NCBI RefSeq assembly: GCF_002934625.1
Contig: NZ_PTJD01000002.1
Span: 62,001 to 126,000, forward strand
Direction: 5' to 3'
Source: Kineococcus xinjiangensis
Lineage (GTDB): Bacteria > Actinomycetota > Actinomycetes > Actinomycetales > Kineococcaceae
Length of the DNA stretch: 64,000 nucleotides
Numbering within the stretch: position 1 is the first letter of the stretch; every line of letters begins with the position of its first letter. Position numbers and translations under genes: made by a program. The notes below the pieces were generated by a model that saw nothing but the letters and a program-made list of their open reading frames with translations, was not told the DNA's origin and did no database searches. Positions 16,150-55,099 of this stretch are shown piece by piece.

Positions 16150-16173
16150 CCCCGGAAAGGACCCTTTCCGGGG
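16150..16173. repeat. Tight palindrome, GGAAAGG/CCTTTCC family copy 1
   Basis: Two 11-base arms (CCCCGGAAAGG and its complement) flank the dinucleotide AC. The copy lies between the convergent aroC and CHRD genes, 24 bases after the aroC stop. The spacer is too small for an ordinary RNA loop without opening inner pairs. The same core recurs at 16191, 55038 and 55084. Confidence 0.75.
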
Positions 16174-16190
16174 TGCTGGGTGCCGCTCCG

Positions 16191-16216
16191 CCCCCGGAAA
16201 GGGTCCTTTCCGGGGG
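16191..16216. repeat. Tight palindrome, GGAAAGG/CCTTTCC family copy 2 (inverted)
   Basis: Two 12-base arms (CCCCCGGAAAGG and complement) flank GT, the reverse complement of the AC in copy 1. It is 17 bases downstream of copy 1 and just before the CHRD gene stop on the opposite strand. The pair may act as a bidirectional terminator or a protein-binding element. Confidence 0.75.
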
Positions 16217-50253: not shown

Positions 50254-51045
50254 GTGTCCCACCCCCAGGGAGACCAGCCCGAGATCGAGTGCTGGCTCAC
50301 CGACATGGACGGCGTGCTCGTCCACGAGGAGAGGGCCCTGCCGGGAGCGGCGGAGTTCCTGAACCGGCTCGTGGAATCCGGTCGCCGCTTCCTCGTCCTC
50401 ACCAACAACTCGATCTTCACGCAGCGCGACCTCGCCGCCCGCCTCGCCCGCAGCGGGCTCAACGTGCCGGAGGAGTCCATCTGGACCTCCGCGATGGCCA
50501 CCGCGGACTTCCTCGCCCGGCAGATGCCCAGCGGCTCCGCCTACGTCATCGGCGAGACCGGCCTCACCACCGCGCTGCACGAGGCCGGGTTCATCCTCAC
50601 CGACACCGACCCCGACTACGTCGTGCTCGGGGAGACCCGCACCTACTCCTTCGAGGCCATCACCCGCGCCATCCGGCTCGTGCAGTCCGGGGCCCGGTTC
50701 ATCGCCACCAACCCCGACGCCACCGGCCCCTCCGCCGAGGGACCGCTGCCCGCCACGGGCTCGGTCGCCGCGCTCATCACCCGCGCGACCGGCGCGGAGC
50801 CCTACTTCGTCGGCAAGCCGAACCCGATGATGTTCCGCTCCGCGATGAACCGCATCGAGGCGCACTCCGAGTCCACCGCCATGATCGGCGACCGGATGGA
50901 CACCGACATCGTCGCCGGCATGGAGGCGGGGCTGCGGACGTTCCTCGTCCTCACCGGTTCCACGAAGCGCGAGCAGGTCGACCGCTTCCCGTTCCGGCCG
51001 CACCGGGTCGTCGACTCCGTCGGAGACCTCGTCCAGCTCGTCTGA
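50254..51045 (+). CDS. HAD-IIA family hydrolase (NagD-like phosphatase)
   Basis: This 263-residue protein has the HAD motifs WLTDMDGVLVHE (nucleophile and second Asp), LTNNSIFTQRD, FVGKPNPMMF with the Lys, and IGDRMDTDI. The C2a cap and NagD-like order are complete. GTG 50254 follows AGGAGGTACCC, the strongest ribosome site of the operon. Its substrate is a small phosphate ester; a role in sugar-phosphate disposal next to deoC is plausible. Confidence 0.93.
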   Translation: MSHPQGDQPEIECWLTDMDGVLVHEERALPGAAEFLNRLVESGRRFLVLTNNSIFTQRDLAARLARSGLNVPEESIWTSAMATADFLARQMPSGSAYVIGETGLTTALHEAGFILTDTDPDYVVLGETRTYSFEAITRAIRLVQSGARFIATNPDATGPSAEGPLPATGSVAALITRATGAEPYFVGKPNPMMFRSAMNRIEAHSESTAMIGDRMDTDIVAGMEAGLRTFLVLTGSTKREQVDRFPFRPHRVVDSVGDLVQLV

Positions 51046-51050
51046 GGGCC

Positions 51051-51094
51051 GGGTCGGCTGACAGCCCGCCTGCGGGCCCGCTGTCGGCCGACCC
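51051..51094 (+). terminator. 15-bp stem terminator after the HAD hydrolase gene
   Basis: Arms GGGTCGGCTGACAGC and GCTGTCGGCCGACCC pair with one mismatch around a 14-base loop, starting five bases after the stop. It marks the probable end of the carbohydrate operon. Confidence 0.7.
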
Positions 51095-51208
51095 ACCTCA
51101 CGCAGCGCAGCGGCCCCTCCACCCGGTCGGGCCCCCGGAGGGCCGTCGGGGTGACCGTGGGCGACGCCGCTCCCCGGACGGCCCAGCGGCAGGACCACCA
51201 CGATGGCC

Positions 51209-51246
51209 TTTCCATGCCGGAAAGGCGCACCTTTCCGGCATGGAAA
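51209..51246 (+). promoter_or_regulatory. 17-bp perfect hairpin covering the start codon of the next gene
   Basis: Arms TTTCCATGCCGGAAAGG and complement flank the loop CGCA. The ATG at 51240 is inside the right arm, so folding of the mRNA would hide the start codon. The inner GGAAAGG/CCTTTCC core links it to the palindromes at 16150, 16191, 55038 and 55084. There is no ordinary ribosome site between the loop and the ATG other than within the stem. Confidence 0.7.
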
Positions 51247-51713
51247 CGAACGGCGCCTCCCTCACCCCCCAGCAGGCCCTGGCCGCCGTCGCGGACGCCC
51301 GCGCTCAACTGGCCGAGCGCCCGGTGCACCCCTCCTGGTACTCCCCCGCCCGGGCCGTCGTGCTCGGCGCACTCGTCGCCAGCTTCGCCACCGCCGACGC
51401 CACCGTGATGATCGCCGCGGCCGCCGCGACCCTCGTGGCGCTGATGGCGCTGTCCCTCGCCGCGCGCTCCCGCACCGGCACGGCGGTCCTCAGCGACCGC
51501 AGGCACGGCGCACGGCGCGCCCTCGACGACTACCTCAGCATGCTGTCCCTCTTCGTCGTCCTCGGCCTGCTGTCCCCCGTCCTCGGCGGGCCCTCCTGGC
51601 CGGCGCTGCCCGTCGCGCTCGCCACGGTCGTCGGCATGACCGTCTCCGGCCGCCGGCACGAGCGCGCCCTGCAGGCCGACCTGCGCGCCCTCGCCGCCGG
51701 AGCGGTCAGATGA
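51240..51713 (+). CDS. Four-helix membrane protein paired with a winged-helix regulator
   Basis: This 157-residue protein has a soluble start (LTPQQALAAVADARAQLAERP) and two hydrophobic hairpins, PARAVVLGALVASFATADATVMIAAAAATLVALMALSLAA and SLFVVLGLLSPVLGG/ALPVALATVVGMTVSG, written here in parts. I do not recognise a named family. Its stop overlaps the following regulator start (ATGA), a pairing seen commonly in actinobacteria. ATG 51240 is the only in-frame start near the coding pattern, but lies in a strong hairpin. Function is unknown. Confidence 0.75.
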   Translation: METNGASLTPQQALAAVADARAQLAERPVHPSWYSPARAVVLGALVASFATADATVMIAAAAATLVALMALSLAARSRTGTAVLSDRRHGARRALDDYLSMLSLFVVLGLLSPVLGGPSWPALPVALATVVGMTVSGRRHERALQADLRALAAGAVR

Positions 51714-52048
51714 GCGCCGTGGACGTGGAACCCCGCTTCGACGAGGTCCTCAACGCCCCCCACCGCCTGCGGATCGCCGCGCTCCTCAGCAGCGCCGACC
51801 AGGTCGAGTTCGGCGTGCTGCGCGACCACCTCGCCGTCGCCGACTCCGTCACCAGCAAGCACCTGAAGGTCCTCGTCGACGCCGGCTACGCCCGCCTCAG
51901 CAGGATCCCCGGCCTCGGCGGGCGCAGCAGGACGTGGGCGGAGCTCACCGGGGCGGGGCAGCGCGCCCTCCGGGGCCACCTCGCCGACCTGCAGCGGATG
52001 GTCGAGGCCGCCCGCGCCGTGCAGCCGCCCGGCCCCGGCGCTCCCTGA
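51710..52048 (+). CDS. Winged-helix (HTH_34/ArsR-like) transcriptional regulator
   Basis: This 112-residue protein has the compact winged helix: FDEVLNAPHRLRIAALLSSADQVEFGVLRDHLAVADSVTSKHLKVLVDAGYARLSRI in parts, with GGRSRTWAELTGAGQRALRGHLADLQRMV forming the wing and last helix. It matches the HTH_34-type regulators rather than metal-binding ArsR; no Cys pair is present. ATG 51710 overlaps the stop of the membrane protein gene, implying coupling. Confidence 0.88.
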   Translation: MSAVDVEPRFDEVLNAPHRLRIAALLSSADQVEFGVLRDHLAVADSVTSKHLKVLVDAGYARLSRIPGLGGRSRTWAELTGAGQRALRGHLADLQRMVEAARAVQPPGPGAP

Positions 52049-55037: not shown

Positions 55038-55061
55038 CCCCGGAAAGGACCCTTTCCGGGG
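55038..55061. repeat. Tight palindrome, GGAAAGG/CCTTTCC family copy 3
   Basis: CCCCGGAAAGG and complement flank AC, identical over 24 bases to copy 1 at 16150. It lies 14 bases after the diguanylate cyclase stop. Confidence 0.75.
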
Positions 55062-55083
55062 TCGAGGAGGGCACTCCGGGCAT

Positions 55084-55099
55084 GGAAAGGACCCTTTCC
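55084..55099. repeat. Tight palindrome, GGAAAGG/CCTTTCC family copy 4
   Basis: The core GGAAAGG-AC-CCTTTCC is exact; the left flank GGGCAT differs from copies 1-3 and resembles the GGCATGGAAA of the 51209 hairpin. It lies between the convergent cyclase and nucleosidase genes, 23 bases from copy 3. Confidence 0.7.

Follow-up and report, generated by a model that had tools for sequence, protein, structure and literature searches.

Within the 64,000-nucleotide stretch of Kineococcus xinjiangensis DNA analyzed here (the window), a perfect inverted repeat covers the start of a small membrane protein gene, which is followed by the gene of a winged-helix regulator. The features of the locus are as follows.

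51209-51246, no strand: perfect 17-bp inverted repeat with a 4-nt loop, composed of box 1, the spacer GGCGCACC and box 2
51209-51223, no strand: predicted operator box 1, TTTCCATGCCGGAAA, a palindrome of the form TTTCC-R-NNN-Y-GGAAA
51232-51246, no strand: predicted operator box 2, TTTCCGGCATGGAAA, which runs over the membrane gene's start codon into codons 2-3
51240-51713, plus strand: gene of a small membrane protein (157 aa, beginning Met-Glu-Thr) with five helices in its structural model
51710-52048, plus strand: gene of a winged-helix regulator (112 aa), assigned to HTH_34 with an ArsR/MarR-like fold by Pfam and the structural model

The stop of the membrane gene and the start of the regulator gene overlap by 4 bases. 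The upstream neighbors encode a deoxyribose-phosphate aldolase and an HAD-IIA phosphatase, the gene of the latter lying upstream of the hairpin at 50254-51045, and the downstream neighbor encodes a PAS-GGDEF protein. A first-pass annotation of this DNA had described a 17-bp stem with a 4-base loop, the ATG of the membrane gene in its right arm and a GGAAAGG/CCTTTCC core inside, and all of these elements were confirmed: the arms at 51209-51225 and 51230-51246 are complementary at 17 of 17 positions around a loop of 4, the core is present, and the ATG (51240-51242) falls within box 2. The stem is real and far beyond chance, a search of the window for the exact core CCGGAAAGG-N4-CCTTTCCGG, tolerating 3 mismatches at most, finding a single copy where 0.03 would be expected. 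It exists because two 15-bp palindromes of the form TTTCC-N5-GGAAA, with centers 23 bp apart, flank a palindrome-like spacer. This palindrome has exactly 2 copies in the genome (4,617,682 bases), both at this locus, compared with a chance expectation of about 0.35 copies computed from the genome composition of about 75% GC. A genome search allowing one mismatch retrieved no further operator, a result of weak weight since the reversed control likewise gave 0. Considering its sequence organization, the hairpin is best read as DNA rather than RNA, namely as two copies of a candidate protein-binding site.

The regulator scored 43.6 bits against HTH_34 (PF13601) in Pfam, above the cut-off of 27, and the same family was matched at E 0.01 or better by all 47 of its aligned relatives. 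Its AlphaFold2 model is a winged helix of mean pLDDT 94.6, with elements in the order helix-helix-helix-strand-strand-helix, and its top fold match is the archaeal winged-helix protein PH1061 (1ub9; Z 14.0, rmsd 2.2 over 95 residues). The best PDB chain found with the regulator alignment profile was 1ub9 too (E 1.1e-6), and a PDB search with the single regulator sequence gave 0 matches. The model of the membrane protein contains five helices (mean pLDDT 88.1). Pfam returned no family above cut-off for this protein (best score 17.5 bits, YwiC), and among 51 members of its group searched against NCBIfam the window protein had no match, with a single stray match among the others. Its model had 174 matches in the PDB at E up to 10 and none at E of 0.001 or less, so that the fold of the membrane protein is unplaced. 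From the available relatives, 47 and 51 entered the structure predictions.

The two genes also occur as a pair in other actinomycetes and in some proteobacteria. When 394 genomes of the class were searched with the membrane protein, matches were found in 19, and a regulator homologue directly adjoined the membrane gene in 15 of these 19 loci, which had been found by the membrane protein alone. A contig scan with six regulator sequences yielded 424 relatives, and the best 80 of these, which were used, come mostly from actinomycetes, with additional representatives from Brevundimonas, other Caulobacterales, Aliikangiella and one Sporosarcina record. In the own family (12 genomes), a search with the membrane protein matched the own genome alone, and regulator homologues are present in 10. 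These amount to 20 regulator loci (the window's own excluded and its paralogue L052 included), of which 11 carry a box pair scoring at least 16, four of the 11 being near-identical copies in one genome (G009), and 9 have no such pair on either strand. A sister genus in which no membrane-protein homologue was detected still has box pairs at its regulator homologues (L038, L039, L041, L056 and others). The G009 copies (L038, L047, L053 and L055) are near-identical regulator loci with a box pair on four contigs of one genome of this sister genus, and may represent either a mobile element or an assembly artifact.

Among 91 non-redundant loci selected by protein only, 84 carry a tandem box pair, defined as at least 16 of 20 fixed bases located 150-950 bp upstream of the regulator. 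The controls were negative, with 0 of 86 downstream of the regulator and 0 of 91 for the reversed motif. The seven loci without a pair of score at least 16 within 950 bp comprise four whose boxes lie just beyond the scanned range (L099, L102, L109 and L116), one that scores 15 (L024), one with only one weak box (L026) and one with no box at all (L064). The box-conservation, pairing and permutation counts omit four duplicates (L019, L022, L029 and L034) and five loci selected by DNA (L138 and L140-L143). Analyses on 85 loci refer to the 91 minus six without a pair of score at least 15, and counts on 100 loci (start codon and box presence) retain the nine duplicate or DNA-selected ones. In the 85 loci the boxes are spaced by 24 bp (33 loci), 28 (19), 23 (17), 29 (9), 27 (5) or 25 (2). 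An apparent third box follows the usual pair in nine loci (L101, L112, L120, L122, L125, L126, L134, L136 and L137) from Brevundimonas and other Caulobacteraceae and one pseudomonadote.

A conserved start codon elsewhere had been named in the first-pass annotation as grounds for giving up its proposal; instead, 69 of 100 loci have an upstream gene whose start codon falls within a box, in frame, and 68 of these 69 proteins begin with Met-Glu. Since the predicted operator spans the start codon and codons 2-3, regulatory DNA would constrain a protein N-terminus across many genera. Other loci, such as L058, L059, L020 and several from Brevundimonas, have intact boxes and a start about 25-45 bp past the beginning of the last box, in some cases with a purine-rich Shine-Dalgarno-like stretch. 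The boxes are therefore the conserved element, and their overlap with the start codon is common but dispensable.

The first-pass annotation had also suggested a translation switch. According to this explanation, the stem would form in a transcript started upstream, for example by read-through from the phosphatase gene at 50254-51045, and would hide the ATG at 51240, blocking translation until opened. The RNA stem is indeed very stable, with the fold of 51200-51290 reaching -46.2 kcal/mol (z -4.84, and 0 of 200 shuffles equally good), and three relatives (L094, L106 and L133) share 15-of-15 complementarity between boxes. These and the own locus are nevertheless the only 4 of 85 loci in which the full 15-bp stem is possible, whereas the boxes persist, and this speaks against an RNA switch. 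Poor conservation of the stem pairing was the outcome that the annotation itself had set against its proposal, and it weighs on the RNA readings in particular. Moreover, in several relatives (L058, L059 and L020 among them) translation starts at a separate codon downstream of the two boxes, and Rfam gave no family above cut-off, the single match, at 20.4 bits, falling short of the gathering score of 50. Complementarity between the N5 spacers of the two boxes does exceed permutation (193 versus 163.7, sd 8.1; full matches 7 versus 1.3). Examined per column, the excess is confined to box1-8:box2-8 (p 0.02) and box1-9:box2-7 (p 0.001), and pairing within each single box shows no excess; these permutation statistics ignore kinship, except in a run restricted to the 77 rows with distinct spacer combinations. 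The excess is a modest, minor feature beyond the need of a simple two-operator model. On the basis of the pairing counts and permutation over 85 loci, an RNA switch was rejected as the main function, and we regard it as very unlikely.

The boxes are linked to the regulator in two further ways, both of which bear on whether the operator could belong to another regulator encoded elsewhere, with the neighboring winged-helix gene as a bystander. First, 396 genomes of the phylum were scanned with the DNA pattern only, which returned a tandem pair in 6 genomes (reversed pattern, 0). One pair is the own locus, and the other five are new loci that all carry the regulator type (E 1.5e-31 or better) beside an ORF of 147-170 aa. 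Second, the box bases co-vary with the predicted recognition helix of the regulator, in which the residues DSV or DSA are placed by the winged-helix fold of the model rather than by a complex. The 82 loci with DSV-helix regulators have 187 boxes, of which 186 carry a purine at position 6 and 184 a pyrimidine at position 10. The scan for relatives (A2) used the DSV helix pattern, which accounts for the DSV majority; box bases were not a selection criterion there. The loci with DSA-helix regulators are few and related, with 17 boxes in 8 loci, one box (in L143) overlapping another at a shift of one base. All 17 boxes have a purine at position 10 and none a pyrimidine, and 14 have a pyrimidine at position 6. 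In seven other loci, which total 14 boxes, position 6 is a purine in 13 and position 10 a pyrimidine in all 14; three of these loci have a PSA helix and keep the R..Y bases, so that the helix code involves more than a V/A difference. In L024 and L026 the regulators have an EANLSK helix and the boxes are altered, their left half reading TTAAC or TTGAC, a further hint of a helix-operator code. What speaks for a foreign regulator is that the role of the co-encoded protein at the boxes is read from sequence; against it, all six pairs retrieved by DNA alone adjoin the regulator type and the box bases follow the helix of the co-encoded protein, and we consider this possibility extremely unlikely. 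Among the three functions originally offered for the hairpin, recognition by the winged-helix protein encoded downstream is thus well supported, by conservation of boxes and gene pair, by the search from motif to gene and by the co-variation, and the translation switch and terminator control are not supported.

That the hairpin acts as an intrinsic terminator, or is one more member of the palindrome family GGAAAGG..CCTTTCC of this genome, has a negligible probability: the GGAAAGG/CCTTTCC core is common to 62 other genome places, but a T-run and a terminator-like site are both absent (0 sites in 51040-51300, the 3' flank of the stem being CGAACGG), which also leaves the suggested terminator read-through control without support, the other family consists of GGAAAGGRYCCTTTCC, typically paired at 42 bp, and TTTCCN5GGAAA is unique to 51209-51246 in the whole genome.

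The looser core GGAAAGG-N0-12-CCTTTCC has 63 copies in the own genome, nearly all of which, among the matches listed, belong to this different repeat family, and none in the 11 other genomes of the family Kineococcaceae. Paired palindromes of the form GGAAAGGRYCCTTTCC-N26-GGAAAGGRYCCTTTCC occur in the window at 16154-16211 and 55042-55099 and also genome-wide. With linkers of 10-40 bp allowed, 27 pairs were found, with a linker of 26 bp in 25, 25 bp in one and 24 bp in one, and the middle of the linker varies between copies. Contig C11 holds nine of these 27 pairs, and the 669-kb contig C1 holds none. The constant spacing and free linker sequence suggest a protein reading two sites at a set distance. 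A REPIN/RAYT reading of these pairs was rejected, there being no Y1_Tnp transposase in the genome.

Returning to the double operator, its position relative to a promoter is visible in part of the relatives. Among the 30 loci of spacing 27-29 with the ATG in box 2, 22 have a TANNNT hexamer whose last base is the first T of box 2, 7 nt ahead of the ATG. In loci of this spacing, box 1 often has TTGAC or TTGCC as its left half, which is -35-like. In Mycobacterium tuberculosis, TANNNT elements centered 7-12 bp before the transcription start have been described (PMC3898074). The geometry of the spacing 27-29 loci fits a leaderless promoter, in which one operator would lie on the -35 element and one on the start. 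The 29 loci of spacing 24 show no TANNNT. At the own locus no sigma-70-like promoter is recognizable, the hexamer in the -10 place being GCACCT, and a leaderless start is therefore presumed there.

Conserved palindromic sites at the start of an operon, linked to a co-encoded regulator, characterize an autoregulated operon, and both were found here. We consider it very probable that 51209-51246 is the double operator of an autoregulated two-gene operon bound by the co-encoded HTH_34 protein. Dimers of this protein (51710-52048) would bind both TTTCCRnnnYGGAAA palindromes, the downstream box extending over the presumed start of transcription as well as the membrane gene's start codon. The bound regulator would block RNA polymerase and hold both genes low, acting by autorepression rather than activation. 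For the membrane protein a role as signal receiver is probable, by analogy with SdpI/SdpR (PMC1626106): on sensing its signal it would lift the repression, perhaps through recruitment of the regulator to the membrane.

A puzzling hairpin becomes, in this way, a specific predicted pair of operator and regulator within a family of small regulators, and because the box bases track a helix residue this family would offer a natural recognition code. A full-text literature search for HTH_34 or PF13601 found no paper, and no description of the operator or of the gene module was found in the literature searched, which included few subscription papers. More tentatively, and with rather less than an even chance of being right, the locus may represent a widespread and apparently undescribed one-component membrane-signaling module made up of a small helical membrane protein and an HTH_34 repressor, in which a double operator fused with the start codon dictates the Met-Glu N-terminus, the membrane protein sequesters its own repressor, and the helix-to-operator code is readable.

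Overlapping operators are already known from autoregulated operons. The regulator resembles PH1061 (1ub9) and the HTH_34 members of the ArsR-MarR superfamily in passing the HTH_34 cut-off and in its best PDB match by both profile and fold, but a single-sequence search gives it no solved relative in the PDB. Among leaderless actinobacterial promoters, those of M. tuberculosis (PMC3898074) are comparable with the TANNNT 7 nt before the ATG in 22 of the 30 relatives of spacing 27-29, whereas the own locus has no recognizable promoter. For the operon as a whole, the comparison is with SdpI/SdpR of Bacillus subtilis. In that system, the autorepressor SdpR is accompanied by the membrane protein SdpI, which sequesters it (PMC1626106). 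Unlike there, the gene order at 51240-52048 is reversed and no toxin or ligand gene is known. The SdpI model was matched at E 0.01 by 0 of 51 relatives of the membrane protein, and the window protein itself matched no Pfam family above cut-off. SdpR, in turn, is of the ArsR type. The likeness might concern a possible mode of action rather than family membership, since both systems are small two-gene operons that pair a membrane protein with an autorepressor, a putative one in our case (for SdpI/SdpR, PMC1626106).
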